NCBI GenBank assembly: GCA_963854835.1
Contig: OY978526.1
Coordinates: 88,526,846 to 88,590,845 of the forward strand
Length of the DNA stretch: 64,000 nucleotides
DNA from: Megamerina dolium
Lineage: Eukaryota; Arthropoda; Insecta; Diptera; Megamerinidae
Reading direction: 5' to 3'
Positions within the stretch are counted from its first letter, which is position 1. Each line of letters opens with the position of its first letter. The position numbers were made by a program, and so were the translations under genes. The notes beneath the pieces were generated by a model. The model saw nothing but the letters and a program-made list of their open reading frames with translations. It made no database searches and was not told where the DNA came from. This document shows, one piece after another, positions 9,301 to 61,834 of this stretch.

Positions 9301-12300
9301 TAATTGTCAGACAAATTTTTCAATACATTCTTGTTGCCCCTCTTTTATGCTGTAGTTGATGTTCACATTAATTTATACAATTTGGTTTCGTACATATATA
9401 TATTTACATACTACATACTATCAAAAATCGACATGCATACATTTTAATCTCGTATCAAGTGTTGCACATCCCACGTTGTAGTACAACATGTGCAGCAGTA
9501 AAAATTCAAATTGCACCACCGCCATCAAACAACAAGAACACCAACAACACCATATACATAAGTAGATTCAGAAGAATAGCAAACAATCGCAACTTTTGCG
9601 TATTTATGGCAAGTGTACATATGTATTAGTATATTGGTTTTAATTCAAACACAATTGAGTAATCAATTCACCAATACGACGAATTGTAAATCAATAGAGC
9701 AATAGAGCATTAAGGTGACCATTTTTGTAGCAAAATGTTCCTTTAATCTCAAACAATTGAACGAATAAAAATAATTGCATTTATTATGCAATTTAATTGC
9801 ATTTTTTATATGAGACAAGAAAAAAGCGATTTTTTCCTGTCCGTCTTATCTATGTTTTGAGTTTTGAGTTGATTGGACAAATCCATTTAACGAATAAACA
9901 CTGTATTTGTAATTGAGAAAAGTCAAATATCAAAAAATTGCAAAATTGCAATTGAGTATTATTTATTGATCGTCTAACAAAAAGTAAAAAAGTTCACCGA
10001 CCAAAACGTCAATTAAAAAAAAAAAATAGATGGCACTTAGAAGTCACGCAGGGCTCTTTGGCCGAGCTTCTATTCTATTACTGTTGTGCGTGTTAAATTT
10101 TAGACAGTATTAGAAGGGACCTACTTATTTTAGCCGGTTCCGAACGGCAGAACTCTTGCGACATCACTTTTTCTGAGCTTTGTCACAGAATTCATTTAAA
10201 AGCTTTGCCATGGCAAATTGTTACTGCGAAAGAATAGCCAATTGCTTGCCAAAGGTACCGCTCGATAGAAAATTGGGACATTTTATAACGGTTGACAAAA
10301 CATAGATCAGTCATTACATCCTGTGTGTAATGACTGATCTATGTTATCGAATAACAAGACAAGCTGTAGTTGCAGATTTTCGACATAACGGCACTATCTT
10401 GCATCAAAAGTGTCATGCTGCTGGCATATGCCGACGATATGATATAATCCGTATCAACTCGCGAGTAGTCAGTACAGAATTCTATGAATTGCAACGAGAG
10501 TCACGTCGAATGGGTCTTACAGTGAAAGACGGTAAAACGAAGTACCTAGCGTCTACAAACAAAGAATCCCGGCCTCTTGGACACCACGTCACTGTTGACA
10601 ATTACACTTTCGAGGTGGTGAAGGACTTCGTCTATCTTGGAACCAGCATCAACAACGCAATGACGCAATGACGTCAGCATGGAGATCATGCGTAGCATAA
10701 CTCTTGCTAACAGGTGTTACTTTGGGCTGAGTAAGCAATTGAGAAGTGGAGCCCTCTCTTGAAGAACGAAAACTACACTCTAAAAGTCTCTCATAAATAA
10801 TGTCCTAACATATGGCGCAGAATCCTGGACGGATGAGAGGATGCTTGGAGTTTTCGAGAGAAAAGTTCTGCACGGGATCTTCTGACCTATTTGCGTTGAT
10901 GGCGAGTACCAAATGAATACAACTATGATCTGTATGAGCTGTACGCTGACATTGACAGATTTGGTGAATCAAAATCCAGAGGCTGCGCTGACTGGGTCAT
11001 GTCGAGCGAATGGAAGAAGACGCTCCAGCGAAGAGGGTATTTAATTCGACACCCACTGGAGGACGAAGAAGAAGAGAAAGACCAAATCTCCGTAGGAAGG
11101 ACCAAGTGTTGGGTAACCTGACGGCGCTTGGAATGTTCAATTGGCGCCAGCAAGCGAAGAACAGAGAAGACTGGCGCCGCATTATATGTTCGGCCTAAAT
11201 CGATCATCGGTTGTTATGGCCACATAAGAAGAAGAAAAGCTGTGGGTCAAAATATGACCAGATATGTTATTAATAGCTGGTCACCTTATAATTTATTTTT
11301 ACCGGCTCTTTAAATATGCTTCGCTTAGTACAATTTCATGATGAACTATTTCGATATAACAGTATGTATCGTACTTATGCATACATACCAATTGTATGTC
11401 ATCGAGAACGGTAACAATACGTAACAGCATTTACAACAGCAACAACAGTCTAACAAACAACCTACAGACCTAATAAAATATACGTTATATGTGTAAAATA
11501 TGTTTATAATTCGATCTAACACATTTTAAATTTTAGAAAGGTTTTCAAATTGGGAATTATGTACATATATATTATATAAGTATATGAATTTATGTAGATC
11601 AAGCTGACATGATCATTTCAATTAAAAAAGAAAAGATTAAATAAAAAATCAAATTGAATAACTTACTTGGTGATTCAGATCCATGCAATGATGCACTCTC
11701 ACAATCGACAATTAATCCCTCATTGTCAGATTCATCATTTTGTAGTACTGTTGTTGCGCCCGGTACAAATGGTTCGTTTAGCGTATTCACTGTAGCAACC
11801 GAAGGACTTGATGTCTCTGAATTACCAGCAACATCAATAGAATCATCCATATCTAAGGCAGATGCTGTTGATGTTTCCAATTTAATACGTTTTGTTGGCG
11901 GTGATGAATTGGCATCTTCCGTATTGTTACTAACGTTTGAATCAGCAATGATGGTGGTGCCACCCATATTCGAAGAAGTATTAGCGGCAGTATTTTGCTA
12001 AAAGAAAAATACAATAATATACAATTTATATAAATCCATTTTTGTTAGTCCATTGTTGTCTTGAAAATGAAAACAAATTGGAAAAATTAAAATTTTTTAT
12101 TACAACCGGATGTTATTATATCATTTCATAAGCAAAAGAACTATATAAAGTGAAACAAAAACAAATAAAATCTTTCAAGGCGACTCATACATATATACAC
12201 ACGCACACACACACACACATACAATTTATGCAACAGACTGCAACCACTTGAAAAGAGGCTACCATCTACTACCATCTACTACCACCACGTTGACCATGTT

Positions 12301-15300
12301 GTTGTTCAAAGAAAACTCATTGAAGCCAATCGAGTTTAGCTTTTTGTCAAGAAATAAATATAAGTAAGAAAAACGCAGAACGTGTCAAAACTTAAGAAAT
12401 TATAACCCAACAGAGTATGCACACAAATAGTAGTGGTTAAATAATAGTAACAAAATGTATCTAGAAATGCTTAGGAAGAGGTGATATTTTTTTTTGTTTG
12501 TTTTAATTTTTCTTTCTGTATAGTGTATTAAATATGAAAAGGGAAACTGGTGTATTTACATCCATATATAGGAGAACACTATTGTTTACACTCCCATCAA
12601 ATACAAAGTTATAAAATTATGTAGGAAATGAATATAAAGCAAAAAAAAAAAAAAAAAAGAAATAAAAATTTCAAAACAATACAAGAAAGCAACTACATAC
12701 TACTGTATACTATTTGAAGAATCTGAAAGACTTGTTATACTCTAAGTACAACCAACTGAAATAAGAAATTGAAATAGTCCACCAAACTGTTGCAGCGCAA
12801 TAGTCACAATGGCAATGACATGAATGATACTTATTATTAAGTGCAACAATATTAATGCTTATAGTTAATAACAAAAAAAAAAAAAAGGAGAATAAAAAAA
12901 GTATAGGTACTTGAAAGTGACATTGAATATGGAGTATGTATATATACGAGTATAATGTAAATATGTAAATAGGTAGATGCAATTGATGAGAATCGAACAA
13001 AATTGAAAGGGTAAAATATTTTCCAAGAATCAGGATTTTTAATCGTTATAACCAGTGAAGAAAAAAAACTAATTAATTAATTTTTATTTATTTTTATTCG
13101 CTGCGACAAGGGCTCGCTTCAACGACTCAATATTTGGGTGTCGAGTAGAGCAAGCCATGCCCTCTAATACGGATCACAACTTGTAATCCAACGGGTTGAG
13201 GTCTGGACTACCAGCTGGTCAATCATCCGTTGATATGAAGTCAGTTGAGTCGTTTTTGCCTTGTGAGCTGAAGCAGAGGTCTCTTTGGGTCCTCGGGATG
13301 AGTTGGGATGCTTCTCTCGATGACCGAGCATACACACTATCGTTTTGTTCATTGAACGATTCTTCTACGGTGAAGATTTTCTCGTCAATAAACAGAATTT
13401 GCCTCTGTATTTTCCCTCCAATAAGGCCGTGAGTAGGTGTTCAGTGTGTCGCTTGTACGCGCTGAGTTCCAAATCTTCATGGACATGGATTATTGCGAAA
13501 TTTGCATTTCCCGCCACAAGATTTTCTGTTTTCTCAGCGGTTTTCGGTCGATTCATTTCTTCAAGACTTTGATCGCTTTCGGAGTTCTCACAATGCGCGG
13601 GCGGCCGTACTCCACCAGTATCCTCAAACAACTTCACAGCACGATTCACAAAATTGCCAACAATTCCAAGCGGTCGCAACGTCCGAAAGTTATCGCCTTT
13701 TCCCATGTTCCATTTTAGTAGGCCAACTACAACAATATGATTTTCGATGTCGCTCCATTCCATGATTGCAAACAATTGGTGAGAAAAACTTTTTACATGG
13801 CAAAGAAGCATAAATGTCAACAGTCAAATCGCAGTCAAGATGAAATGGATGCGCCCAATATTGCAATCGTAATGAATGCGTTTAGTTGTGTACCAATATT
13901 TATGACTTGACTAGGTATATTTGGCATAATTAACACGACGTGGTTAATCAGCTGGTTTTAGTGTTTGTGCCATTTGAATTTTGCACGGAAACATCTCCAA
14001 ATCGCTACGTATTATTATTATGTCAGAGAGTGGTACAAAAGGTGTCTAATTCCTGGGAGTGACAATAGCCCGATGTCGTTGGAGCCTGCTCAATACTGGA
14101 GGCTCTAATATTTTCATCGGAAGATCTTGCTCGTTGTCTAAAACTAAGTAGGTAGGTAGGTAGGTATGGAGTGGCCGCCCTGAAGGGGCACACGTAGGCC
14201 ATCATAGGCCCATTGCGTTACCACAGGATCTCTAACCATAACTCGCGTGTGAGATTCCTCACTTTTGCTGTTGAAAGACTATAGTGAGGCTGTCTGAACT
14301 GTCTGAAACTGCAGACTTTTTGTGTGATCCCAGTCGAGCCGTAGCCAGCTCTGTTGTGCGATGTTGCCCGTGATAGAACGTGTCCAGAGGTCATTTGTCT
14401 TGTCCATCATTCCCCCCTTTATTGTTAGCTTACATGTACTCAATGGAGTGCTCACTGCTTGCAAAATCAGGGGAGAGTTCTAGCGTCTGTCTAAAACTAC
14501 CGGAGCTCAAAAATTTTCCGTATACACCCCGAGCTAAACAACTTCAGCTCGTTCTTTCGGAGTGTACCACTCCATGGTATAAATTTCCTTCGACTGACGG
14601 TTCCAAGGCGGTATGGCATTGGTCGATTTGACCGCGATGTCAAAAGTTTTGCTGAAAAACTTCTAAATTAATTTTGTGAATATCAGCTGAGTATCCATTT
14701 TTAGCAACCACTTTTGTGGAAATGAAAATACATTATTTTGGCTTCATCCGACATTAAAACCAAAGACGATGATATGCTTTTTATCCGATGCTTCTGACGA
14801 AAGTGAGAGCCAAAATAAAAAAAATGTTTCAATTTTTTAAATTCTTTGCATTCAACCCTGCTAAACATGTCGATAATTATTTGCGAGTTAATGTTCATGT
14901 TGAACATTAAGTCGATTGGGCCAACCCTTTTCACAACACGATTTCACCAAGAATTTATTCTCAACGTTTTTCAACTTAGTTTTGTTTGTTTTCTGTTTTT
15001 GCATAAAAACGTAAAAATGCATAAGTTAGAAAGACAAAAAATTAATAATGAAAACTTATGAAAAAGAAATCTAAACTTGAACTCAATTTTTATTTTTTAC
15101 ATGTTTGCTCTATTTTTTGTCGTTTATTCCTATTCTCTTCTTCTTCGTCGCCGTTTGATATAAGTATATGCACATAAAGATTTGTCATTTCCGATGAACG
15201 ATATGTAGTATAACCAAAACAATAACAGTAGCAATATACTTACGTAAATATATATACCTAAGTATATATATCGTACATATGTATCTATAAGCAGAATAAA

Positions 15301-18300
15301 TAACAGCAAAATAACAACAATAACAACAATTGTGATGGACCCCATTAAAAAGTTCATTGCTGCGTACTCTATACCTACATAGGAGTATACATGCATATAT
15401 CTACTACCACCACTAATATCTTTGGTAATAAGAACAACAACAACAACAGCCTGCAACAATATTGAATAACAACGACAATAACAACAATATAGTAGTATAT
15501 GGTACGATATGAATGAACTTCATCATATGTTTGTTTTTCAGTTGGTATGATTGTTGTAAAGTGGTCTCAATTTTTCATGAATAAGAAGAGTACCTACCTT
15601 GTCGTAGAAGTGATCTGCTATATGTGTATGTCAAAGTCAGACATATACCTAACTATATACAAGATGTATGAATATGGTATATATCTACTTGTGCATTATT
15701 TATTATAATCACTGTTCCATTGAACGAACAAAATCATTTAGCGAAACCGAAAAAAAGAGTTCATAAACATAGAAAAATATTGACTGTCTTTTTTTTTTTC
15801 TTCACTGTTGCTGTTGCTGCAGAAGAATATCTGAAAGAGAAGAACGATCGAACACTTCAAGAAGTACTTTTATTCTACTTTTTCTTCAACTTCGTCGTAT
15901 TTATATTGTATTATTAACTTAACAGCCACTATTAAAAAAAAAAAATAGGGGATTTTTTGAATGAAAATTTTCTCTGTTGTTGTGGCTGTTAGTTAAACTA
16001 GATTTACAAATAAGCGCAACGAATGATGATCAAGAGCAAGTTCAAGATTTAAAATTCTTATTTCTGTTTTGCTTTGTCTAAAGTACAAGGGTATTGCACC
16101 ACACCACAGGCTTTTGCTTATTCTTCTCTATAGTTATAGCAACACTAGCAGTAGCAGTAGCAGCAGTAGTAGCTGCAGTAGTAGCAGCAGCTACAGCAAC
16201 AGTCTATTAAATATAGCAAGTCAAATGTAAATCACGTGACCATAACGAAATTGAAGTTAAATACAAGTATGTACGTACTAAAAAAAGGAGCTAAAATAAG
16301 AACAGTGCTACATCAATGTAAACAAATACGGTGGATATAGATACATAAGTAGATATGAGTGATACAACACCATCGTATTACAGTGTTGCCATATTTTCAT
16401 AGTCAATCTTGAATAAAGTGTTCAAGGAAAGACAAATGAATTCAAGCATAAGCTTTTAAACGGATTGGACAGTTCCAAAATATTCATTGTAATCACCAAA
16501 ATCAATATACAGGGTGATTTTTTAAGAGCCTTCGGATTTGATTTGAGAAAAAAACACATAAAATTTAGAGAAATGTAAGAAATCTTAATTCGAGTCGATA
16601 GTACGATCTATATAATTCAATGTTTAAAGATGATTCCATGTAAATGTTGACCGTGGCTGCGTCTCAAATGATTCATACGCTGGGACCAATTTTAGCATAC
16701 TCTCTCCAATATATCGGCCGGTGTCTCACGAATAAATTTTTCAATATTGGCTTCCAGTGCGTCAACAGTTACGGGCTGGTTGCTATAGACATGAACCTTA
16801 ACATAGCCCCACAAACAATAGTCTAAAAGCGTTAAATCGCACGATCTAGGCGGCAATTGATCGTGAAATAAATTGTTCACCGAACTCGCCTCTCAATTGG
16901 GCCATTGTATGCTGTGCTGTGTGGTATGTGACGCCGTCTTGTTGAAACCCCATGTCAGCCAAGTCCAGCTCTTCCATTTTGGGCAAAAAAAGGTTTGTAA
17001 TCATCTCACGGTAGCGCTCGTCATTCACAGTAACGTTCCTACCTTCGTCGTCTTTGAAAAAGTACGGTCCAATGATGCCACCGGCTCATAATCTACACCA
17101 AACAGTGCATGCTTCTGGCTGCTCTTCACACCAAATACGGCAATTTTGATTGTTCACGTATCCATTCAACCAGACATGACCTTCGTCACTGGACACAAAA
17201 AGGTGCACGATGCGCATTCGAAAGAGCATGAATTTTGATAATTAAAATTCAATAATCTGCAAGCGTTGTTCGTTTGTAAGTCGATTCATGGATAAATTAA
17301 AGACCAAACTGAACATATTCGACAGTAACATAATCCACGAAAACAGTGTTGCCAAAAAGAAAGTTGCTAAAAAATCACCCTGTACATACATAGTAGAACG
17401 GGTTTATGTTCTTAACCATTCTGGTTCAACTAACTCAGTACAATTATTAAATTGTACCCATACATCATCAAGTGACAATGCCTGCGATAGGAATTATTGT
17501 AACAGGTCTCTTCAAGTTGGGTCCAAAATTATTAGGCGTTGACTTCTGCAACATAGAGGGCACTTGAGAGGCCCATCAAAAGATGCTCGCATCCAATCCA
17601 CCCATCGCCAGCGTCATTATGATTCCAGTATTCATAATATAATCCTAATCTCTCTAAACTGTAAAGGATAAAAAAATTCAATAAATATCTGGCACTGATA
17701 AGCCCCGAAGAGCTCTTTGGCCGAGCTACTCTTCCAGTACTGTTCTGCGTGACAAAATTTTGGACAATATTAAGAGGGACCTACTTATTTTAGTCGGTTG
17801 CGAACCACAGAACCCTGGTCACATCTATTTTTCTGAGCTTTGTCACAGAGTTCTTTTAGAATATTTTCCATGGCAAATTGTTACTGCAGGAAGAATTGCG
17901 AATTGCTTGCTGATAGATGGGTACCGTTCGAATGAAAAATCTTTTCGATATTAAATTTATGCTTCAACCGGGAATCGAACCCACGACCTAAATGCCAACG
18001 CATTAACCACTGAGCTACGGCAGTCAATTGGTCTACTTTCTGGATATCGAAACGGACGTTAATAAGCGGCGAAATGTTCTCTTGCTAGGTTTGACGTTAA
18101 TGAACCCAAGATTAGATTAGTTAGTTTGCTGCTAAAGCATAGACCAATAAAATGGAAGTTGTGAACATCGTCCATTAGTAGATAAGCCATTACGACCTTA
18201 CCTAACTTTAAAATAATCTAAGAGACCAAAGCCTTTCGAACCCTGGAATGTCAAGCATTTTTATTTTAAGTATATAAGCAGTAGCAGTAACAAGAAAATC

Positions 18301-24300: not shown

Positions 24301-27300
24301 ATGAAAAACCATTTTAAATTTTAAAATGTATGTTTATTTATCAAAATAAACTCCTAAAACTTCAATATACCTAGTCCAACATACTGTTAATCTATCGATT
24401 CCTTTACATGGGATTTGCCCTACCCGTCTTCTTCATTGGTGATACTTTTTCAAATTTGTAAAAAAAGTTTCATTATAAAAAAATCACAAACATGTCAATT
24501 TCAAAAACTTTGTAAAAAAATAAATACGTGGCACCTTCCGTGGCCCGGAAGGTCTATGTGGTCGAGCTTCTCTTCCATTAATGTTGAGCGTGTTAAATTT
24601 TGAACAGTATTAGAAGGAACCTACTTATTTTAGCCGGTTCCAAACGGCAGAACTCTTGCGACATCACTTTTTCTGAGCTTTGTCACAGAGTTCTTTTAGA
24701 AGCATTTTCATAGCAAATTGTTACTGCAGGAAGAATTGCTAATTGCTTGTCGACCGTTCGAAAGAAAAAACTTCTATTATATTAAACTTATTACGCTTCA
24801 GCCGGGGATTGAACCCGCGACCTACAGATGAGAAAACCAACACACTAACCACTTAGCTACGGCACTTATAAAAGCTCAAAACAAAGAATATATTGACAGA
24901 TAGATTTCAAGTTTAACGTGTATTCATGTATTGGATATTGATCCTTTGTCAACATCGACACATAGACGGCGTTTCGCCCAAACCTTCTCAGACAACCCTC
25001 ATATGTAAATTGCAAGTTTCTTTGACTCAAATTCGTTTGAAACTGTCTTCTATGGAGAGCACACGATCAGCAAGGGTTTCTGCCGTTCGGGACCGGCTAA
25101 TATAAGTAGGTCCCATCTAATGCTGTCCAAATTTAAGATGCACAACAGTATTGGAAGAGAAGTTCGGTGGTATCACAATTGGCCTATCTGGCCTAAGTGT
25201 GTCCTCTCAGAGAGAGGGCAGCCACATAACCTAACCTAACCTAACCTTGTCGAATTCAGTGATATAGTGATACTATTTAAAGTAAACATAAACAATTCCC
25301 AAATATAAAAAATACTAGACATCGTAATAGCAATGCCCCAAAAATCGATATTAAAAAATTATTTTGCAATTATAATTTTCAATTGATTCGTTTGATTGCG
25401 AGATAATGCCACGTTTGCTTTTCCACCACCATAATGTACCAGCTTCAGTTCTCTGTCATCGTAACAGCAAAATTGATTGAACTTCGTTACGAATTAGTCC
25501 CCTATCCTCCAACTGCTTCTGCAACTTCTTTCTATTCTCCATTATCAACAATTGAGGAGTTCACTTAAATCATATTGTATTATTCGGAAAGCTTAAAAAA
25601 GTTGAAGCAACGTTGCACAGAGTGGCGCTGAATCCAAATCCTTGGTCGGATTTCCGCCATCACCCAAACGTTTATTAAAAAAAAAAACGTAATTTTTTCG
25701 GTAATTTTTGCAGGAGTGTTTTTTAGGATAGAAAGAAACCACAGGGTGATGAAAATTTGCTGGCGGGTTCGGATACAGCGATCCATAAATTGTGACCACT
25801 CCAACCCGCAGGGTCAATTTTCTTTTTGGGTGCTTGAAAACTACATTGCGAAAAGACTTCTGAGACATAGGTAGTCTCGTGACTCTTAGAATTTTCAATT
25901 TTTATGTTGTTTGACTCAATCTATCTGATAAAAATTCTATTAGTGCTTGAGCTCTGATATATCTGCAAAATATGCCAGACATTTCCAATAGAAACTTATT
26001 TTGTAGTGTGTAGCTTTTATCGCTACAATTTCATAAACCAATTTCAACTAATACATACCACCATCATTTCGAGTACTGTTAAATACTTTGGCAATTAGTC
26101 TGAAGCAAATAGAGGATTACATAAATCGCAAAAATAAAAATATAAAATTTTTCTCAGAAAGACTCCACAGCATCATTGCTATTATTAAGTGATTTATGCA
26201 TGAACACTTGTAGAATAATTTATCAATGTCAATAGCAAAAAATGCATGTAATAAAAACGGCTACATATTGGAGAATACATAAAATCGACTACCACAAAAC
26301 CTTTTGGGAAGAGAGCGAGAAATTATTTTTTTTTTTAAATAAAATAAAAAAGAGAAAAGTTATAGCCCAAACCGATTACCATTGTACAAGCAATAGTAAA
26401 ACATGCCAGACGACATAATAAAATTGTACAAACAAATGCAGTAAACTTGTAGGAGTGTGCATTCGAAGAAGTATACTCTCCTACATATATGAAAAGCGAA
26501 CACTAACTAGTGACAACGGCGGTAAAGATTATAGAAAATAAAAGCAGGAAAAAAATAGTAGACACTGAGAAACGATGAATTGATAATCAAATATACTTCC
26601 GCAACATTAGGTTTTGTGATTTCATAAAAAGGATATGATGATAATGGTTGTATGGTGGTAGTATGGAGTAGAAATAATCGTGATGATAACATTGTTGTGT
26701 AATTACAATTTCAATGAAATCAATGGAATAATGTACATACATCGTCACTTGTAGCTCATTTTAATTATAAATATGATACATACGTACATATAAGGCCATT
26801 ACAACCCGTTATCGAGTTACGGCCGACCTCAGCAGCTCTCTCCAGGAGTCTCTGTTTTACGCGCGCCTTCTCCAATCAGTTACACCAAGCACAGATAGGT
26901 TTTCCGCGATCTGGTCCTTCCATCGGAGGCCTTCCCCTTCGTCGTCGTCCAATGGCTTCCGTTTTAAACACCCTTTTCACCGGAGTTTCTTCATGCATAC
27001 GCGCAACATGGCCTACCCACTGCAGACGCTGAATAGTGATGCGTAGGACTATGTCAATGTAGAGCTCATAGAGCTGGTACAGTTCGTGGTTCATTCAAAT
27101 ACGATAGTCTTCACCGACGCGAACAGGACCGAAGATCTTGCGAAGAATCTTTCTCTCGAACACCCCTAGCGTGGCTGCATCGGTCTGCTTCCACGCACCC
27201 ATGCTCCCGCGCCATAGAGCAGCACGGGTATGATGAGCGTCTTGTAGAGTGTCAGTTTTTTCGGGCGAGAGATGGCTCTAATCGTAATTTGCTTCCTGAG

Positions 27301-30300
27301 CCCGTAGTAACACCTATTAGCAAGAGTTAGTCTTCATTTTATCTTCAGGCTGACATCATTTTCGGTGTTAAATTCCTTGACAACTTCAAAAGAATAGCTG
27401 TCCGCAGCTATTCTTTAGTGGGATCCTAGACGCCGCGTCTCCCTGTTCGCGACAACATATACTTCGTTTTTCCCTCGTTCACCGCCAAACCTACCTTCGC
27501 TGATTCCTTTTCGATCGCAGAAAATGCAGCAGTAACATCTCGCTTACATCGTCCGATGATACCAGTGTCAACAGCATACGCAAGGAGCCGGAGGACACTT
27601 TTGTAGAAAATAGTGCCACTACGATATACACCGGCTTTTCGCAACACTCCTTCCATTACAAAATTTAAAAGTTCGCAGTATAAAGGATCGCCTTGTCTGA
27701 AACCCCGCACGGTATCAAAGGATGCGGAGAGGTTATTTCCTACCTTGACGGAACTACAGAGCCTTATCAGCTTCGAAGGTATACCGAAATCAGACATGGT
27801 GGCATACAGGCAATCGTATCGGGCTACCGAACGCAGCTTTATAATCGACAAAGAGATGATGGGTGTCGATTTGCTTTTCGTGGGTTTTTTGCAGGATTTG
27901 GCGCAGTGTGAAGACGATCTGTAAGTTCTGAAGATCTTATACATAGATGTGATAGATAGTAAAAATTCCTTAGTAATGGATTGATGGATAGTTGTGGATT
28001 GAACTTTTGGGAGAGTAAATTGAAAAATACAGTGATTTTCAAACGCAATTTGCGCTTTTTTTCCTTTTGATTTTTTAAACGTTTCGAACTGCTCTTTTAG
28101 TCTCATTTTTTTTATAGAGTTGTTTATTATTTATAAAGTTCAAATAACAAGAGTTCTATTTTATTCAAAATTTTTTTAAAGTGGTAGTTTCAGGGCAACT
28201 ACTATTTGCATCCTCAATAATTTCAAGACAATCAAATCCTACACAGACGTTTCATTTCATATACATAGTTAATTAAAGTTCCATAATCAGCAATCCTGTG
28301 GGGTGAATTAAAAAAAACAGGAGGACGAGAGACGAATACCAAATAAATAGAATGGGAAATCAAATTGAAGAGACGTTCAATGCGTCTCAATTTTGTTCTT
28401 TTCTTTACTCCATAAACACGTGCAATAAATGGCATCGCCAGAACAGGAAATTGTTTACCATACTTATTATGCATCGTGATCGTTCTCAAGAAGGAACTGC
28501 ATCATTTACATTTGACAGTTTTCTATTTTCCTATTACTATCCATTTTCACCCTGTTTTTTCAAAGGGTTTTCTTCTAGTATGTAATACAGCAGCTCCTAT
28601 TGTTGTTTCTGTTTCGTTTTAGGATTTACTCAAGTATCAAAAAAATGATTATGCACTTGCGCTTCTTATAATCTCTACTTTCATTGAACTAACTCGTACG
28701 AATGGCGTCATTTATTGTTAAATGGGAAGCGTATTCGATTACATATACTATACTGTTTATATGTAAGTGTCTTTTAAGTGAGACGATTAACAATGTACAC
28801 ATTTTCGGTAGCTATGACAGGAAAGGGTTGTATTAAAAATTTTAATTCTTTAAAGGCGTACTTTACATGCGCTCTTATTTCAAAGGCGTATATGCATATA
28901 ATTAAATTAGCTGCCGCCTTTTCTATCAGCTTAAATTTAGTGTGTTATTGTATTAAGGCAAAGTGATTTAAATAGAATTCTAAACACGTGTTTATGCCTT
29001 TATACTTTAGCATTTTTATCAAATTGATTTAATTGAACAAATTTCAACTATTACATGAATCAGATTAGTAAAGATAACTTCCGCTTTTTGATATTTCAAA
29101 TAGATGTACACATACATTACATATTATGTTGTACATACTACATATTATAGTATCGAATTATGATCATTTTCTTAAAATTTTTATCTTATAATCTTCAATG
29201 TGCTATTAAGTGTTTTAGTTGGTGCGGTTTATTTTCGAAAATTGAGAATATTATTGTGAAAAATTGATTATACATTTAATGTTCAAAGTATTGTCCGTCG
29301 CTAGACACTACTTTTTCCCATCTTTCTGACAGCATACGGATTCCGCGAAGGAAGAAGTCAACGCAGTTTTGACGCAATCCATGAAACCACCCGATTCTTG
29401 GCTTCTTCGTAAGAGTGGAAGCGCTATTCTTCCAGGCCATGTGCGATTGATCGGAACAAGTGGTAATCGAAAGGAGCAATGTCTGGACTGTACGACGGGT
29501 GGGGTAGGACTTTCCATTTGATCGCTTCTAAGTACGTTTTAACTGGCGCCGCAACATGTTGCCGAGCATTATCATGTTGCAAAATAACTTTGTCGTATCT
29601 ATCTGTATATTGCAGCCGTTTTTCTCGCAATGTTCGACTGAAACGCATCAATCGTCGTCGGTGCAGGTCCCTTTGATCGTCCGGCCCAGTTTCAATAGCT
29701 CATAATACACCACACCCAGCTGGTCCCACCAAATAGTACACAGCAAAGTTCTTATCGACATGAATATTCGGCTTGGCCGTCGGTGATGAAACATGGCCGC
29801 GGTATCCATACGTTACCCGATATTTGGGATTATCGTAATGGACCCACTCTTTATCGTCAGTCACAGTTCGAAGCAAAAACCCCTTTCTTTTTTGTGAAAA
29901 AACGGCGTTCGACGTCTCTTGGCTTCAATTCATACATATTCAAATTTCCTATCTTTCGGATAATTCCCATTTGAACGACAGGAAATGGTTGGCTGAATGA
30001 CTCCAAGTATTTTTGCGAATTCATTTTGCGTTTGTGATGGATCTTCATTGAGCCTTGCCTCCAATTCTTCATCCTCAAACTTTGTTTGCGCTCCGGGTCG
30101 TTCTCAGATCTATCAGAGGGCAAACTTCGGCCAAGAAAGTCCGTTGTGATACCACGCGGACATTCTACTACGCTACCTCGGTAAACTATCTGGATTTATT
30201 TACAAATTTCAAAAGATTACTTATTGCAACCTCTGTAAGCAGGGCTAGGTCCTCAAAGTAGTAATTATCTAGACATAATTTTCGTATTGTGCATAGTGCA

Positions 30301-33300
30301 GGGCAATTGCATAAGAGATGCGTGACTTTTTCGAGCTCTTCATGGTCCCTGCAGCTTCTACAGAAGTCATCCGTGAGGTGGCCCAAAGCCATCCTACCAG
30401 CGAGAGGTCCTATGAAGCAGTGGCTCGTGACCACTCCTACAACGGTTGATGTGTCTTTCTTGCTAAGGTCAATAAAAATTTGAGATCGTTTCTTACTGTG
30501 TTGGGCTACAGCAATTTATCTGTTCTACAGATGGAAGATTCCGTCCATCTACTTTGTATTGCAGAGAAGATAGTTTCTTGTAATTTCAGTTTTCAAAACG
30601 TTGGATTTCCAACATTTTTCCCAAAAATTTGGTGTTAAGATGTCGACATAGGCGACACTTCGTCTTGCTATCTCAAAACTAGAATCGTTACCCATTTGAG
30701 TTCTCGTAATGAGTTCTGACATTCGTCCGTGATAATAATTTTTGCTTTCGAAATGAATTTTGACGAATTCGTTTCTGCACATTTGTATCGATTTAAGCAA
30801 AATAAAATAGATTTCAAGTGTCAATTTAGTTCAGTGGTTCGTGCCTTGGCCTTCTGATTTGTAGGTTTTGGTTCAATCCCTGACTGTGACAACTTTAGTA
30901 TTTTTCTTTTGAACAGCGCCCACCTGTCGGCAAGAATTTGTCAATTCTTTCGGTAGCAACACTTTACCATGAAAAGCTTCTGTGAAGAAGCTCTGTGAAG
31001 AAGCTCTGTGACAAAGCTCAGAAAAAGTGATGTCACAATAGTTCTGCCGTCCGGAACAGTCTAATATTAGTAGTTCTCTTCTAATACAGTCCAATACTTT
31101 GTGATATCACAAAGGGCCTTTCTGTCTTAGTTGTGTCTTCTCATAGGACAGCCACAATAATCTAACCAATAACATATAACACAAGAGCGAAATGAACAGT
31201 TAAAACACTGGTTTGAAGCTGGTGGAAGTGCACCAAAGAAGGCAAGTAGGCAGTTCCATTAGCAGGAAAGGTTATGGTAATCGGGTTTTGGGGTTGCTGA
31301 GACTTTTTATTAGTCGATCAATTGGGAATACTAATTTAAAACCCTCTCGATCAATTTGATGGAAAAATTCAACAAAAGAGCGTACGAAACGCCCGCAGAA
31401 CTTCAGAAATCATACTTTAATGAGGTTATTGAATTATTCGAGAAATGTTGAAATAAGTGTATTGAAGTTCTAGCAGATTATATTGAAAAACAAGACATAT
31501 ATCAGCCTGAAATTAATAGTCTTTCATTGTCGAACTCATATACTTTTCAGACTACCCTCGATGTAATTTGTAATCTAAGTTCCTCTTCCGTCAATCAAAG
31601 TAATATATACGAAGAGTTCGTATGGCTAACAAAATTATAATTGAAAATGTGAAAATCTACAAATGCGTAAAACGATTATGAAATTGAATCATCATAATTA
31701 TAAATTATATTGTCATCTAGTTAAGAATTTGATTGTTAGTGATAACATTTGAAAAGAGTGCTTATCGAAATTAATGCAGTCAAAAAAGTGCTGCTGTTGA
31801 GCTTCCTCAAATTCAAGTTGAATTATAAAAAAAAACAGTAAGTAGAAGGTACTTGCTATAAAAATGCAAGATAAGCACACACACTTTAAAACTCTTGAAT
31901 CGTGAGTATTTTCAAGTAGCTAAATATATTTGCAATAGAACAAGTGCTCGCCTATCAACTCTTCGCTACATATTTGGGTACATAGACATGTGTATACCTA
32001 GAAAATGGATCAATGGTAAGTGGGTAGAAGCACAGCATGAGGAGAAGGTTAAAACATAGTATGAAGTACTGATTAAAATGGCTAAAATTAATGGCTAATG
32101 CCAATTAATGTGACAATATGGTTGTAATGATAACATTTAATTGCAGTCATATATATTTTGGAATTTTAATCGGCTGGGTCTGTACTGTACTATCAATGGA
32201 TTTTAAACTAGTTCAAATATAGTATTACCATGTGCTCTGAGATACAGTAAATATTAGTAGTCTATGAGCAGTAGCCGTAGTTATACCCAAAATGAAATTG
32301 ATAATATCGATTGGAATAGGTCTGTTGGTAGCAACATGTGCTCCACTACTTGTGGATGGAACGGATACGTCAATCTTTCAGCGTACATTCAAAACTTTGC
32401 ACGGTGAACCACCACCACCACCGACTCCACCAGGTAGAAATCGTGCCATCGTGAATACATTATGGATCGATCAGAAATTAGACCACTTCAATGATTCAGA
32501 CGATCGTACATGGAAGATGGTAGGATGGAAGGATCCAAAAATCCCCCAAAAAAAAAAACATCTCAATAAAAATATATTTATATTATTTCAGCGTTACATG
32601 TCCAATAGTGAGTTTTTTAAAGAAAATGGACCAATCTTCATTTTTGTGGGCGGTGAATGGGCAATCGCAACTGGTTATTTAACAAGTGGTCATATGTACG
32701 ATATGGCTAAAGAGCATAATGGTTATTTATACTATACAGAGCATCGTTATTATGGCGAAAGCAAACCAACAAGGTGTGCTATTATGAATTATTCAAAAGA
32801 AATAATTTGGTTACATATTTTTCTTTACTTTTCTTGCATAGTGATCTTACCAATGATAATATGAAATATTTGCATGTACGCCAGGCTCTAGCCGATTTGG
32901 CTCATTTCATACGTACTATGAAATCGAGCACAGCTGGACTGAAAAATTCCAAAGCCATTCTGGTTGGCGGTTCATATTCTGCTACAATGGTAACATGGTT
33001 TAAACGATTATATCCAGATTTGGCAACTGGTTGTTGGGCTTCGAGTGCACCACTCTTCGCTAAAGTTAATTTTATTGGTAAGTGAGCTATGAGCTGTCTG
33101 TCGTATTGCAAGTCAATCATCCAATTTATCATTTTGTTCATTGTAGAATACAAAGAGGTAACTGGTCAGTCGATACAATTGGTTGGTGGAAAATCATGCC
33201 ATGATCGTATACAGAATGGTATTGCCGAATTGGAATCAATGTTCGCCAATAGACGTGGTGCTGAAGTAAAAGCTTTGCTAAAACTTTGCAACAATTTCGA

Positions 33301-36300: not shown

Positions 36301-39300
36301 AAATTAAAAAGCATATTTGCTGAATTCTATGTGTTCATGGATGAAATTATTTATGAAATTTTGAAATTCCGAACATTTGTCCTGAATTACAAAGAGTTGC
36401 TGCCGCACTCAGAATCATTATCGATTATTTAAATCGTCCCTTAGTGAAGATTTGAAAAATTCACTCTCAGAGTCAATTAATGATTCGTTAGTGCCCCTTA
36501 ATGACTTAAGTACGGGAAAATTTTTACTTAACTTTTTAATGATCGATTTTCACATTTTTTGCTTGTTTTATTTTCTATTAAATTTACGTTACCATAATGG
36601 GGTGGTCCTTAAATGCAGGAAGACATTATTTTGCATCAGGTTTCTTAAATCTCACCGCCTAAATCGGCAATGCCACGATGTAAAAAACATCACACATAAA
36701 TTTTGGTTCCGATTAGAGACACTTAAAGAATCTGATATTTGACCACTGGGCGACAAGCCTTAACTGTCTCCAATTGGGACAAAAATTTATGTGATATCTT
36801 TAACCATGACATTACAAATTGAGGTGTGAGACTGAAAAAAAAGGACCATCCCAATGTATACAAGCGATTCTGAAGGCAAAACAAATTATTTTTTTCCGAA
36901 GGAAAAATATAAAATATTTCAAATATTTCATTTCACATTGATAGGGCCGTAACCGGGGGGACATATTTAAGACTTTGAATATCACTCTGAGATGTATCGT
37001 TACTGATTTACTGAGTTTAACGATCATTAGTTATGTGTTCGTTAGGAAAAAATTTAATGAACGTTTCTGCGTTCGGCAGTTAGATGCATTTTTACTCGAA
37101 ATAAATTCGAAAATTCGAATTTCAACATTTCAATAAGATGCATTCATTCGACAATGCTTGGGAAATATTTTTCGAAGCTTTAGTACAACACTGAAATGGG
37201 CACCAAAGCTCATGTTCTGATCCTTTAGAGCGAGATGGGGTTTTGCGAAGCTCGATCTCACCTGATGATAGGTTAGGTTAGGTTAGCGGCTACCCTCTCT
37301 CTGAGAGGACACACTTAAACCAGAAAGGCCCATTGTGATACCACCGAGCTTCTTTTCCAAAACTGTTGTGCGTGTTAAATTTGGACAGCATTAGAAGGGA
37401 TCTACTTATATTAGCCGCTTCCGAATGGCAGAACTCTTGTGACATCACTTTAACTTAGTTTTATCACAGAGCTCTTTTAAGCAGCATTTTTGGCCACAAA
37501 AATTGCCAATTCTTGCCGGCAGATGGGTACCGTTCGAAAGAAAAATCTTTTCGATATTACATTTTATTATGTTTCAGCTGGGGATTGAACCCACGACATA
37601 CAGATCAGAAGGCCAACGGACGAATCTCTGAGCTACGGCACGCACTGCACCTAATGATAGTTATCAATACCTCCCATAATAAGAGATACTCAACAAAAAG
37701 CTTCTGAAAGTGATGCTCAAAATGATTTTCCGCTCTGCATTGATTTATATAAAAATTGCTTCCCTAAAATTAATCAGTAAAAGAACCCTGTTGGCATATT
37801 TAAAAGAAACCAATGGTTAAACAAAATAGCTGACGACACATTATCTAAAAAAAACGAAAATGTAAAACGCTAAACTTTAAGCAAATGTATAACAGTAAAA
37901 AGTAGTTAAATACCTTTAAAATGCTCCAGTTAATGATCAACAAAAATAAAACTGAGAAATTCACCCAAAAATGCATGAGGTGTAAGAGTGAGCACAAAAA
38001 TCAAAATTATCATTAAATAGTTGTAGTATGAACACAAAATACTGGTACATATCGTATGTACTGGTCGCATGTATTTACTATAATATATATAAAAAAAAGA
38101 TATATATAAAATAACACAACACAATTGATCCAAATTCATGAACATGTCAAGCATTTTAATATAAAATAAACCTCATTCCAATTATTGAATTGAATTAAGT
38201 GTAGTACGTAAATATGTGGTAATGGCGATGGCGATGGCGGTGCACAAAGCAACCCAACGAGTATTAAAACGTTAAGCAAAATATACATAAAGGTAATTGA
38301 TACATTTTAGAAAAATATCATAAATCTTACTACAAGTACAAAATAGTATGCGAACGCAATGAAACGCATTTTAATGAAGTCGTTTTGAATCATGCAATCC
38401 AGTTGAATACTCGAACATGTAAGACTCATACATACCGTAATATGTACAAGTATGTGTCGAACTTGTAGGTATTTCCTGAGGAAATCCAAAGTAGCATTTT
38501 ATAGCATAAAGTTTCCAAAATTATCTAGTCTTTTTGTAAGATTTAAGACATAAGAATTGATTATTCCTAACTCGTGTTTTTAATCGTGTTCTGATTATTC
38601 TATATCACTTCTCTGTTGGAAGTGAAAATGAATGTATACATTTAATACAAATATTATTGTATTTACAATGGTGAATTCTTAAATAAATGCTTCAATCAAG
38701 CATTCTTTAAATGAAATATTTTCCTTGTGAAACATGACAAATTCTCGTGAACTTGCATATGTATCGTGTATAAGTCTATTGATTTGTAATTTATGAGCTC
38801 AATCAATACATACAAATTAACATTGGCATGGTGATGGAGAAGTGACGAATTTCTAATTTAAAAATTATTTTATGTCTTTTTTCTTTTTTGTTCATTAAGT
38901 TCATTATTTGAAGCTGTTAGCTATTGAAAGATTTTCAAAAATTTCAGGGTCAGACTAACATTTACTTGTTAATTCCTTAAATTCCTTCAGTTTGCAATAT
39001 TCTTTATACTGTGAAATAAATCTGCATTCTTAAAACATGTTCGATTAAATCAATTTTGTATGGGAAAATCTCACAATGACGCAAACATTTTATCTGTATA
39101 TAAATAATAAAGGGTTTCGAAAAAAGTTCAGTTATAAATTTGATCGAAAAATGAAACACATTTTTCTTATATTTGAAGCGAGGTTTATTAAACCAAATAT
39201 GTGCCGTTTTGATAAATACGCTTTTGCAATTTTTGGCCATTATTCCATTTGTGTAGAACGTCTGGGTTTTCGAAGCGAAAAACTGATACAAGTGGGGTTT

Positions 39301-42300: not shown

Positions 42301-45300
42301 TCAATTTTTTTTTTTCGTGTTCTTTATTCACATTCATAGATACCAGTGAGTATTAAATCGATCGATTGAAGAAGGTGAGAATAACTGAAGCATTACTTCA
42401 ACAAGAATGCAAAGCAGACATAATCAATGAGAATAACAACAATGAGGGCTGGTTGCTACCATATACAAAACGCTCACCTACGTACGATTGCTGCCACTGT
42501 TATTATTGCTAATGCAAAGATAAAGATCTGAAATAACACAACGTGAAATACTCAGTCGTATGATGTTAAAGAAGCACAGAAAAATCAAAATAAACGAACA
42601 ACTTTTTAAGAGGTGTAAATCATATGGAAGAAGAAGAAATTTTGTGCCGGGAATATTAATCAGAACAACATTGAATAACATACTCGTATCGAGGTAATCG
42701 TACTTATGAACTTGGATAATTATTTATTAGACATTATTTTATTTCTGTATATAATTAAATTAACTACATATTACAAAGACCGAAATAGAAAATTGACTTT
42801 AGAAACTCAAAACTATTCAATCCAAATTTTAACAGACTAAATATTACTGTGATTAACATTCCGTACTAATTTCTCAATATTTTGTTCGCCAAAAGGTCTA
42901 ACATTATCATAGATATTCACAATTTCGGGCATTTTTTGTAGAACCCGCAAAAATTTGCCATAATTTCGACGTTCATCGTCACGTAAATCGACCAACGATT
43001 TCGCACGAAAACCATATTCCGTATGAAGTATACGATAGCCCTTATCCTCAATAGCTTGACAGACCTCAGGTAGATCGAGTGGATTGCAGCATTTGAAATT
43101 TACAGCACCCGTCTCATAGTCGACAATCTCAACGCCACTGGCATTGCATTCGATTGCATCCAATTTCAGTCGTTGCTCTAAATCGACAAAATCCACAGCA
43201 GTGTTATAGGAAATCATTGCCTCAATAAGGGTACAACTATCGAATAGATGGAGGGCGTGTACAAAACCGGCACAATGTTTACCCAATAGATCTGAAAGCT
43301 GGCATTTGAATTCAAATATTTCTGGCGTATATACCGAACAAATTACATAGATTTTCGACTGATAACGTAACTGAACCGGAAATATATTACGTTCATTTTG
43401 GTTATCTTCACATTTTTCAATAATTTTATCGATGACACTTGTTGGCATCTCCTCTTTACGAGCTCTTCGTATAATTTGACGCAATTTCTCATTCTGTTTG
43501 GGATCCATTGAACCACCTTCATGTACAGCCAAACGGATTTGATGTGCCAGACGATTATATGAGGGAGCTTGGGGCAAAGCCATAATATCAGTCGATAATC
43601 TTCTCTTAGCCATATGTGGCGATCGTATTCGTACGATATCCATTGTCTCGGGTTTGTTGGCTTTCCCGGTCGGAGTGTTGATGGAACCAGGTTTCTTGAT
43701 ATTTGATCTTTTCGCAAAAGTGTCCATACCAAAATTGTATAAATTTTAAAACACGTTATATGAAAATTTATTAATCGAGAATTTGATTGTAAATTACAAC
43801 GAAACAGGAATTTGGCATGAAAATTTGTTTGAATTATTTTTTTTTTGTTTATAGGCACACAAAAAAAATTTTTTCTTCTTTTTCGCCTTTCAAAATAAAT
43901 ATTTTGTCAATAAAACAACATTATCATAGTAAAGGTTGATTGGAAAGAAAAAATCAAAAGGAAATTTAGGAATTAAGAAGGAAAATATTGCAGATTGCGG
44001 GCATTACGAAAATGTGGCTCTGGTACTCGGGAGATATCTCTGTTCATCGGCAATAATAAACAGAGCCTGACAATTGAGTATAACATTATTAGTGGGTTTT
44101 TCGAAGAGAGATGTGCGAGATAGAGCAGTGAGCTTCTCAACGTATTGGTCTGAGGTAACAATCTTTAACCTGATAGTGGCTGTGGCAGCTTGAAGATAGG
44201 TTATGTGGCTGCCCTCTCTCTGAGAGGACACAATTAGGCCAGAAAGGTCCATTGTGATACCACCGAGCTTCTCTTCCAATACTGTTGGACGTTTTAAATT
44301 TGGACAGCATTAGAAGGGGCCTAACTATATTAGCCGGTTCCTAACGGCAGAACTCTTGTGACATCACTTTAACTTAGTTTTGCCACTGAGATCTTTTTAG
44401 AATCATTTTTGGCAAATTGTTACCGTCGGGAAAATTGCCAATTCTTGCCGGGAGGTGGGTACCGTTCGAAAGAAAAATCTTTTCGATATTATATTCTGTT
44501 ATACTTCAGCCGGAGATTGAACTCACGATCTACAGATCAGAAAGCCAACGCACTAACCACTGTGCTACGGCACCCACAGCTTGAAGATATAGAAGTAGAA
44601 GATTCGCGGTGGCAGTACGACCCTTTGGGGCACGCCTTGATTCGACAACCTTGAGCAACAATTTTTGAACTCAGCATAAGATTGACTGCCTACTGGTCGA
44701 ATAAGTTGATAACCAGCGCTTGATGGCAGTTAAATAGTACTTCATAGCTGAAGACATAAAAAGCTTTCGCACGGATGAGTTTGATTAAGACCTAGGCTGA
44801 TATGATGAACCAGCTCAGTAAGGGCTGAAGTCGTATTATGCAGTTTGCTAAGGTTATATTGATGGCGCGCTGCCTTTAAATATTCAGTAGGGTTGAGTAG
44901 CAAAAGAGACTTAAGAATTTTTGCCACAGCTGATAGAAGCTATATTGGGCATCCCGCATAGGTACTTTAGAATTGATCCCACTCGGTAAACTTTCCAGAT
45001 ATTGGGCAATATGAGGTACCCTGCCCTGGTCCTTTAGGACTGATCCCACTCGGTAAACTTTCCCGATATTGTGTGATATGAAGTACCCTGCCCAGGTGCT
45101 TTAGGATTGATCACATTCGGTCAACTTTCCAGATATTGGTCGATATGAAGTACCCTACCCAGGTTCTTTAGGATTGGTCCCACTAGGTAAACTTTCCAGT
45201 TGTTGGGCGATATGAGGTACCCCACCCAAGTGCTTTAGGATTGGTCCCACTCGACCAACTAGCCCGATATTAGGTATATCGCAAATGACGCATCAAGTTT

Positions 45301-52032: not shown

Positions 52033-52125
52033 TTTTAAATTTACGTAATTTGACTAGCATAAAACAATATAATTAGATTGGTATTGATATAAATGCATAA
52101 ATCTCATCCACATATCTCTACTCAC

Positions 52126-52280
52126 CTTCAAGTTGCAATGCTGTGTGTAAGTGTGTTGCACTACAGTGCAATTTCCGTTATAATTCTTCACCCCTGGCAG
52201 TGTATTCCACTTCCGCTGCAATGTATTAATACGATTCAAATTCAACTTTGAAAATTTTCCTCTAGAATATTCAATTTTCA
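52126..52280 (-). other. Ino80: Ino80 probable 5'UTR exon and UTR intron
   Basis: On the minus strand a good donor (AAG|gtgagt) lies at 52126/52125. A good acceptor (gctag|TCA) lies at 52054/52053, 21 bases before the ATG at 52032. Together they define a 72-base intron in the leader. The outer limit (about 52280) is a guess, because no clear core-promoter motif was seen. The ATG context is AAAATGAG, acceptable for flies. Confidence 0.45.
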
Positions 52281-56544: not shown

Positions 56545-56690
56545 GAGGGGGAGGTCAGCACAGAGCATTTCCTCAGTGTTTGCCCTGCCTTCGCTCGAGC
56601 AAGATTTCGTATATTTGGCTTTGATGTAATGAGAATGGATAAATTCCATTCTATAGCCCCGCGGGAGATATTCAGATCTGCTAAAGAGTG
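56545..56690 (+). mobile_element. R1/Jockey-type LINE C-terminal fragment
   Basis: The plus strand reads EVSTEHFLSVCPAFARARFR, IFGFDVM and IAPREIFRSAKEW, matching the (H..C)-type C-terminus of RNase H-bearing LINEs. Both flanks are unrecognised. Confidence 0.6.
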
Positions 56691-59523: not shown

Positions 59524-60149
59524 GCATCTATCGGCATATGCTGTTTCACATTAGATTTTGGGCATTTTTTAGACAGTTTGCATATCTCTGCTCATCTCAT
59601 TATGGTATTTGCTAATCCAACTTTTTTGTGAGTGCCTTTATCTTTTAGCTGTGTCGAAACTCCAGCCTGAAAACAAGTTGATCGACTTAGATTTGTGCAT
59701 ACCTTTAACTCGAACGTGCTCTTTGTGTATGTACTGTAAATATATACTATTTTCGACTACGTCTACTATTCCTAAGTGGTTATAGTTTAGGCTTTTAATT
59801 GTGGTAATAAAAATGAAAATATAAAGGTCCTTTCATCCTACATCGCACAACGTATGTATTTGAATTTTAGTGCTCTGTTTTTCATGGCCACAAATTGATG
59901 CAATTATTTTATTATCATGATATTCCGTGAATGGCATACCACACACGAGTGGTTATTCATAGCAATTATAATGATGGTCTTGCCCAAATGTTCTGTTGCA
60001 TCTTAAAGAATTGTTTAAAAGGTTTTTTTTCCAATGTAAATGTTTGAAAAGAAAACATTTTTTAAGGAAATTATTAAGGAAGCTGGCATTATAAAAAGGA
60101 AATAATCATTTTGGTCGTTGATTAAGTACATCATACCATCATAAAAGTG
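59524..60149. other. Spacer between two divergent LINE fragments
   Basis: AT-rich, nothing recognised. Confidence 0.55.
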
Positions 60150-61325
60150 GTAAATAATATAGGTGCTAATATAGGTACTAATACTAATCCGCCGGGTGCT
60201 ATGCGAACATGTCCAATGGCATCAATGGAGATACTCTTGGATCTTACACCTATTCATATTTACATTCAGTCCCAAGAGAGAAGGTTGATTTTGAGGGTAG
60301 CTGGGAATAACATCTCAACCGAAAGATGATAGAACTTCTCGTTGAGCAACTTCCTGATGCCAAGAGACTCGATACTCCCAACGTTCAACTTCAAGAAACA
60401 TTTTAAAACTGAGCTTAGTAATAAAAAAAATTGGAAAGGTATATCACAAAGGTACAAGGTAAATCAGTATATGACGACGTGGTACACCAACGGCTCTCTC
60501 ACCGACGATAGAGCCAGGGCGTCTGTATTCGGACCAGCAGAGAGATACTCTGCACCATTAGGTAAGAATACCTCTATCTTTCAAGCGGAAGTGTACACGA
60601 TAGATAGATTTACCGAAACCGCAGAATAGCAATATTGGCTGACAGCCAGGCAGCTATCAAACCATTCAAATCTCACCACGTTACAACAAACTGGTGACAG
60701 AGTGCATTGAAAAGCTGAACATCCTAAGCCAATTCAATCAGGTGTAAATGCTATGGGTTCCGGGGCATGTAGGGATCAATGGAAATGAAATGGCAGATAA
60801 ACTTGCCAAGAAAAGAGCATCAACTCCATTTGTAGGGCCCGAACCATTATGTGGATTAGGATCGGGAAACATCTCCCATATTATCTGGATAGAAGAGGAT
60901 AGACCGAGAAGATTATACTGGGTAAACATACCGGGGTTATCACACTCCAAACTAGCGCTAGGGATATACAACCTAAAATGCTACGAGGACTGTATGAATC
61001 TAACGAAGAACAACATGAGAATCATTATGGGATTATTTACAGGGCATTGTAGGATGAATTATCACCTAACAAAACTAGGAATTTTCTCTGATGCTTTTTG
61101 CAGGTTCTGCAGGGAAAAGGACTAGACCCCACAACATATGATAGAAATTTGTTTCGTGCTGATGCACAAGAGAAGTAAATACCTGGGAGATTTCATCATA
61201 CCCGAGAACGTACTTAGACTCTGTGAAGTAGGACCAATACTACAATTCATCGAGGGAATTGGGCTAAGAGACATACTTTAAGTCCACGGGGGGACACAAT
61301 GCCCGGCTGAAGCATAAATAAAAAA
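60150..61325 (+). mobile_element. R1-type LINE: RT end, RNase H, C-terminus and 3'UTR
   Basis: The plus strand reads GAMRTCPMASMEILLDLTPI, HIYIQSQERRL, TTWYTNGSLTDDRARASVFG, FQAEVYTI, MLWVPGHVGINGNEMADKLA, VGPEPLCGL and GLFTGHCRMNYHLTKLGIFS, then DAFCRFC and FIEGIGLRDIL-stop. The 3'UTR runs into ggctgaagcataaataaaa. The 5' part is missing and at least two frame breaks occur. Confidence 0.87.
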
Positions 61326-61330
61326 ATAAA

Positions 61331-61677
61331 TATGTGGCACTTAAAGCCCCAAAGGGCTCATTGGCCGAGCTTCTCTTCCATTACTGTTGTGCGTCTTAAA
61401 TTTGGACAGTATTAGAATGGACCTACTTATTTTAGCCGGTTCCGAACGGCAGAACACTTGTGACATCACTTTTTTTTAGCTTTGTCACAGAGTTCTTTTT
61501 AGAAGCTTTTTCATGGCAAGTTGTTACTGTCGGAAGAATTGCCAATTGCTTGCCGACAGGTGGGTACCGTTCGAAAGAAAAATCTTTTCGATATTAAATT
61601 TGTTATGCATCAGCCGGGTATTGAACCACGACCCACAGATCAGAAGGCGAACACACTAACCACTGAGCTACGGCACC
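61331..61677 (-). mobile_element. tRNA-derived SINE, copy 8 (tail type I), full length
   Basis: The type I tail (tgtggcacttaaagccccaaa) directly abuts the LINE 3' end. The head at right has minus-strand A box gccgtagctcagtggttagt and B-box-like gtggttcaataccc. Confidence 0.88.
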
Positions 61678-61682
61678 CCATA

Positions 61683-61834
61683 ACGGCTGAAGCATAACAA
61701 CTTTAATATCGAAAAGATTTTTCTTTCGAACAGTACCCACCTGTCGGCAAGCAATTGACAATTCTTTCGGCAGTAACAATTTGCCATGGAAAAACTTCTA
61801 AAATAACTCTGTGACAAAGCTCAGAAAAAGTGAT
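61683..61834 (+). mobile_element. tRNA-derived SINE, copy 9, inverted fragment
   Basis: Reads cggctgaagcataacaactt then caatttgccatgg and ctctgtgacaaagctcagaa, in the orientation opposite to copy 8. It lacks both the A/B-box head and a tail. Confidence 0.85.

Follow-up and report, generated by a model that had tools for sequence, protein, structure and literature searches.

Short interspersed elements (SINEs) rely on the enzymes of long interspersed elements (LINEs), and the 3' tail of a SINE is thought to set which LINE it uses. The exchange of tails as such is established in the literature. In Helicoverpa armigera, the SINEs HaSE1, HaSE2, and HaSE3 share a head and a central domain and differ in their 3' ends, for which template switching is proposed in the accessible part of the report (PMC3272025). 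The same part gives estimates of about 11,000 and 1,200 copies for HaSE families, and names the SINE superfamilies CORE, V, Deu, and Ceph, which have conserved body domains (PMC3272025). According to the available text of the lepidopteran PxSE paper, SINE tails are also exchanged with other LINEs (PMC8010984), and the excerpted Heliconius report describes varied tails inside the single family Metulj (PMC6685494). A module change in the SINE lineage of TguSINE1 and PittSINE from passerine birds is explained by template switching in the portion of the paper at hand (PMC5729268). The window analyzed here is a 64,000-nucleotide stretch of the genome of the schizophoran fly Megamerina dolium (G000:C2:88526846-88590845), which contains nine pieces of one SINE family ending in either of two tails, designated tail I and tail II. 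HaSE1 and HaSE2 are the closest precedent, since they too are tRNA-derived insect SINEs with a shared head and middle and different 3' ends. As far as the accessible text goes, the 3' region of HaSE2 comes from a mariner-like element and that of HaSE1 from an RTE LINE, whereas tail II of the fly SINE comes from an I-superfamily-like LINE. PxSE and Metulj are, in the parts available, likewise abundant insect SINEs, but from another insect order. In the birds, it is the head that changed, on a retained CR1 tail (PMC5729268, in part), whereas here the tail differs. The likeness to the HaSE, PxSE, and Metulj elements is one of description.

The nine pieces probably represent one dispersed SINE family with a tRNA promoter, mobilized by LINEs and divided into two subfamilies in which the tail is linked to the body, with the tail having changed once or twice. 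The order of the RNA polymerase III (Pol III) boxes defines the sense strand, along which the head is followed by a body ending in ...GGAAGAGAAGCTCGG and then by the tail. In the head consensus, the A box TAGCTCAGTGG is at position 8 and the B box GTTCAATCC at position 53, with starts 45 nt apart; the strings used for matching are those that we take to be the A-box and B-box consensus. The head motif has five matches in the window at three or fewer mismatches, compared with none in 100 shuffles. The boxes and the shared, alignable body support the proposal, made in a sequence-only reading of the window, of a single SINE family that has a tRNA promoter and two kinds of 3' end. That reading listed nine copies, all of which have been found at or near the start positions by which they are named here (Table 1). 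The head that it attributed to all of them is present in six, but copies 10047, 25075, and 61684-61834 are truncated at the 5' end, and the last also lacks a tail. The motifs it reported are real, but it mixed the strands: gaacggcagaactcttg and ggcaaattgttactg, which it gave for the body, are antisense. Tail II was correctly assigned to copies 25075, 30815, 37271, and 44199, and tail I to copies 10047, 17693, and 61331. Copy 24529 carries a diverged tail I, with the lowest tail-I score of the four such copies in the window; it is nevertheless found by the tail-I model, of which it is a training row. Additional short matches to the family are located at 24189-24244 and 8483-8567.

Clear target-site duplications (TSDs) flank copies 44199, 37271, and 61331, for which zero or one of 200 random pairings is as good; the five other window copies tested have none or a weak one. 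The duplication flanking copy 61331 is the post-B-box sequence of the older SINE 61684, and copy 61331 is therefore nested in that element. Across the 500.5-Mb genome, the exact 18-mer spanning the junction of the body and tail I is present in 10,772 places and that of the body and tail II in 1,396, an approximately eightfold difference; reversed-pattern controls of both are absent. Twenty evenly spaced 10-kb stretches from contigs C1 and C2 (200 kb) contain 17 pieces of the SINE, 12 with tail I, one with tail II, and four tail-less. A few weaker pieces either fell under the cutoff of this catalog or were joined with others, and it may count an interrupted copy in locus L030 twice. Extrapolated to the genome, the 17 pieces correspond to about 42,500 pieces (95% range 25,000–68,000). 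The window is rich in tail II, which ends four of its eight tailed copies, compared with one of 13 in the sampled stretches (Fisher p = 0.047, post hoc).

Tail II is, by sequence homology, a LINE 3' end of the same genome. The tail-II 20-mer is present in 28 loci (8 + 20), all on contig C1, of which 27 are SINEs of this family. The remaining one, L019, is a LINE end, in which the open reading frame (ORF) closes with ..LTKIVSFIKFTGWLKEDPVG and stops just ahead of the tail-II sequence. LINE remnants in the window (30186-30515) and in loci L030, L031, L039, and L011 have at their ends a motif related to tail II that consists of GGTAT..CA..ATGG, a GGCC hairpin, in most of them a second hairpin, and a GCCAC-like 3' strand. 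AACCT-type repeats close the motif in L031, L039, and L011, and the L030 end has no clear second hairpin. The other LINE remnants inspected (L045, L037, L032, and L038) are without a tail-II-related end. Each of six LINE ends compared with tail II scores above all 1000 shuffles. The covariance model R2 was trained on five LINE-type 3' ends, one of which (window 14206) has no identified host element, and on no SINE. It recovers 31 of the 32 tail-II SINEs, among them the four of the window, and none of the 22 tail-I SINEs. It also matches L031:707-775; it does not detect L019, window 30155, the tail-II copy of L016, or the piece L021:594-666. The match between tail II and LINE 3' ends that the sequence-only reading anticipated thus holds, by R2 and by the six shuffle-tested ends. 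The LINE with the tail-II-like end in L030 matches RVT_1 (E 2e-12), and that in L011 matches RNase_H below threshold (E 0.002); the L031 peptide has no relevant Pfam match. From the reverse transcriptase, the RNase H-like region, and the C-terminal motif, the group appears I-superfamily-like, a label that is in part our assumption. Tail II is predicted to fold into a three-way-junction-like shape (z = -4.1), which recurs in window 14206 (z = -2.3) and in the L011 LINE end (z = -1.9).

AACCT/TAACC-type terminal repeats of LINE or LINE-like ends are found at L031:7802-7871 (+), L039:5917-5971 (+), L011:359-435 (-), and L031:707-775 (-). They are the complement of the insect telomere unit TTAGG; to our knowledge, flies are without TTAGG telomeres.

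Tail I is shorter than tail II and has one hairpin and a terminal repeat rich in T/A. Its model R3, trained on 14 of the 22 tail-I copies, recovers all 22 of them and no tail-II copy among 32. Two further matches of R3 have not been accepted as LINE ends with tail I: L047:7859-7897 (E 0.0036), directly behind an RTE-like end, is AT-rich, and L031:6983-7047 (E 0.14) is a fragment in which the tail-I-like piece 6983-7005 is preceded by antisense LINE sequence.

The tail is tied to the body subfamily, and one or two changes suffice to explain its distribution; continual exchange is not required. Thirteen body positions separate the tail-I and tail-II classes, so that the shared body of the sequence-only reading is alignable but not uniform, and copy 30815 is mixed. 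Since the 13 positions were chosen where each class consensus exceeds 60%, and several are neighbors, they represent fewer than 13 independent events; the alignment included unrelated 5' flanks. A body tree was calculated from the 46 of the 54 tailed copies that have a matched body of at least 130 nt, with eight shorter and ten tail-less copies dropped. A branch with support 100/99 splits 16 tail-I and two tail-II rows (window 30827, which is copy 30815, and L013) from 28 tail-II rows. The two tail-II rows are old copies that mix body states of both classes. Copy 30815 has no counterpart of the segment TTTAACACGCACAACAG...GAAGCTCGG. The best tree requires two tail changes, and bootstrap trees, from a bootstrap that had not settled, require one to three, with a single change in 16% of trees. 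A single tail-II clade is not rejected by the approximately unbiased (AU) test (p = 0.38). Tail-I copies differ from the body consensus of their class by a median of 7.2% (16 rows) and tail-II copies by 6.5% (30 rows), the latter value possibly biased low by the exact 20-mer with which most tail-II rows were fetched. The youngest copies diverge by 3.3% (tail I) and 1.6% (tail II). The two subfamilies have therefore been active over overlapping times.

The term "exchangeable", which the sequence-only reading applied to the tails, is unsupported because of this linkage and the small number of changes that suffice. Repeated swapping of tails between bodies is accordingly improbable. It would account for the occurrence of tail II on two body backgrounds, as two of 30 tail-II rows group with tail I, and for locus L021, where a tail-I copy is directly followed by a truncated body with tail II; however, the two exceptional copies are old, L013 is limited to the 3' portion of the body, one to three changes span the bootstraps, and the L021 pair is explicable as two insertions. 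The pair itself (L021:213-666), in which the second tail II is old, may be a tandem insertion or an intermediate. The origin of tail I allows more than one explanation. Tail I may be a tail II that was remodeled by the loss of about eight nucleotides (TGGTATCA) and the 22-nt second hairpin and by the gain of a new terminal repeat, with no swap between unrelated LINEs; we hold this to be a tenable, though not the expected, explanation. The alignment of the two tails comprises 25 nt and GCCACATA, interrupted by a single 22-nt gap where tail II has hairpin 2, and its score was reached by one of 1000 controls in a first test and, with cheap long gaps, by four of 2000 dinucleotide shuffles and eight of 5000 structure-keeping nulls. 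The L030 LINE end likewise lacks a clear second hairpin, and the bodies of the two old tail-II copies are partly tail-I-like. With standard gaps, however, 14 of 2000 shuffles and 69 of 5000 structure-keeping nulls reach the score, and the tests are post hoc and concern a short match. Seven single tail-I copies score 13.9–27.7 against tail II, all below the 27.8 of the tail-I consensus. The terminal repeats differ, and the covariance model of each tail finds no copy of the other. In view of this weak similarity, tail I may have arisen by remodeling of tail II or may have been the end of a related LINE, and a pruned relative of tail II that lost a hairpin and has another terminal repeat is a serious lead. 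The claim that the two ends are unrelated is unproven: the covariance models keep the tails apart, and the short alignment hints at a common origin. The situation that the sequence-only reading named as fatal to its idea, two tails that are diverged forms of one sequence, may exist in part, over the aligned 25 nt and GCCACATA.

A true swap between two LINE clades, in which an RTE-like LINE of this genome supplied tail I, is doubtful. The clade of this LINE is presumably RTE, and its C-terminus has no Pfam match. Its end (TCGGCC...stem...GGCCACATAA) has the nested-stem layout of tail I, with which it shares TCGGCC, a GGCC:GGCC stem, and GCCACATA, and in a first test none of 500 shuffles was as good. 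The tail of HaSE1 derives from an RTE LINE, according to the accessible text (PMC3272025). However, the model R1, trained on ten RTE-like ends and run up to E = 10 against 27 of the 49 source sequences, misses all 22 tail-I SINEs, every one of which is contained in those 27 sequences. Later nulls weaken the likeness (35 and 134 of 2000 shuffles, 120 and 340 of 5000 structure-keeping sequences), and the terminal repeats differ. The RTE-like LINE has therefore been rejected as the partner of tail I. Of the two LINE partners that the sequence-only reading suggested, a LINE end has been found for tail II, but no convincing one for tail I in 348 kb.

Several observations weigh against a single family of LINE-mobilized SINEs with a tRNA promoter. 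The head is not recognized as a tRNA by its structure: ARAGORN detects no tRNA gene in the window. Rfam gives no window match at the gathering score, and none up to E = 1 on two SINE copies. Many SINE heads keep only the promoter. The TSD score exceeds 99% of the null (400 mispairings, maximum 12) in a minority of the tailed copies, 12 of 54, with TSD lengths of 10–15 bp; these comprise ten of 24 full-head and two of 30 truncated copies. The LINE material used for comparison consists of remnants and 3' ends, none intact, and no convincing LINE with tail I was found by R3 in the 348 kb examined. The minimum-energy folds of L039, window 30155, and L031 do not have the three-way shape, and the covariation support for the tail-II fold is modest. 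In 11 sequences compared without hairpin 2, 85% of cells are paired, compared with 83% in shuffles (28 of 500 as high), and the covariation score is 0.162 compared with 0.114 (11 of 500 as high), with five double-sided changes; slid controls pair 24–51% of cells.

The dispersed family with two body-tail-linked subfamilies remains the reading that we favor. Its members combine a Pol III head with a body specific to the family and a tail that a LINE would recognize. By analogy with established SINE biology, the element would be transcribed by Pol III from its head, its structured tail would be recognized in trans by a LINE reverse transcriptase, and target-primed reverse transcription begun on the terminal repeat would produce TSDs and frequent 5' truncation. 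Tail II is the structured end of I-superfamily-like LINEs, with its three-way-junction-like fold and (AACCT)n, and LINEs of this type would have mobilized the copies that carry it; tail I marks the approximately eightfold larger subfamily. The tail probably changed near GAAGCTCGG, most simply by template switching or end remodeling. The L019 LINE reads ACTCCGG followed by TGGTATCAC, which suggests that a short microhomology was available for a template switch. It is conceivable, although we consider it unlikely, that the LINE 3' end is a portable cassette that recruits reverse transcriptase, which the SINE captured and subsequently pruned from tail II to tail I. If so, the loss of hairpin 2 and the new terminal repeat shifted the helper enzyme and gave rise to the approximately eightfold commoner subfamily, and the old tail-II copies on tail-I-like bodies are surviving intermediates.

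No publication on this fly SINE family was recognized among the papers listed by a literature search that was thin on subscription journals and did not cover Repbase or SINEBase. As far as searched, the family is new, and the kind of event is already known. A family that combines one body with two tails in many thousands of copies, and whose genome also contains the donor type of tail II, offers a natural comparison of the effect of a tail on the success of a SINE. The matched SINE body pieces total 3.2 kb of the 200 kb sampled. In the accessible part of a survey, SINEs make up less than 1% of the transposable element content in most dipterans (PMC6327564); the fly thus has a noticeable SINE load, with the reservation that the denominators of the two values differ.

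Table 1 Features of the window; strands of SINE copies follow the A box-to-B box sense.
Feature	Position	Strand	Remarks
SINE copy 10047, 5'-truncated, no head, tail I	10021..10272	-	found by tail-I model
SINE copy 17693, head and tail I	17680..18022	-	found by tail-I model
SINE copy 24529, head and diverged tail I	24519..24865	-	found by tail-I model
SINE copy 25075, head missing through 5' truncation, tail II with (AACCT)n	25078..25242	+	found by R2
SINE copy 30815, old, degenerate head, tail II, body mostly tail-I-like	30827..31167	+	R2 match, E 9e-4
SINE copy 37271, head and tail II ending in (AACCT)n	37270..37641	-	TSD CTATCAT[T/C]AGGTG; found by R2
SINE copy 44199, head and tail II	44199..44575	-	13-bp TSD TATCTTCAAGCTG; found by R2
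SINE copy 61331, head and tail I, inside older copy 61684	61325..61676	-	14-bp TSD TTATGCTTCAGCCG
SINE copy 61684, older body fragment, no head or tail, split by insertion of 61331	61684..61834	+	body match
Tail-II-like 3' end of LINE type with TACC repeats after it	14169..14225	-	R2 training row; no host element identified
LINE remnant, C-terminal ORF (30186-30515) followed by tail-II-like 3' untranslated region (30155-30109)	30109..30515	-	sequence similarity; no Pfam match; missed by R2, 3' end cut short
Host gene, serine carboxypeptidase S28	32268-34305	+	Pfam
Host ORF, TACO1/YebC-like by eye	42837-43745	-	inspection
Host gene, INO80-type ATPase	46634-52053	-	DBINO domain; 366-aa piece resembling Drosophila busckii Etl1 at 87%

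Three other structures adjoin SINE copies in the window. A tandem array of a 67-bp unit (44960-45253; 4.4 copies, 85% matches) adjoins the tail-II copy 44199. A near-perfect palindrome, AACATAGATCAGTCATTACA...TGTAATGACTGATCTATGTT (10300-10345), is located just upstream of the truncated copy 10047 and beside a remnant of an RTE-like LINE. A LINE remnant at 60748-61310 (+), with a sub-threshold RNase_H match, ends near the start of the head-less older SINE fragment in the same orientation, and the two may be a chimera or two insertions. Other repeat families are present in several diverged copies: one at 974-1815, 4848-5983, and 13105-13929, another at 19577-20420, 41007-42035, and 62928-63810, and a third at 16661-17122 and 22799-23270. 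The Pfam domain HTH_48 matches the ORF 39621-40313 above the cutoff and 41037-41633 below it, and DUF4817 matches 22237-22725, which suggests that these ORFs are remnants of DNA transposons, in part mariner-like.

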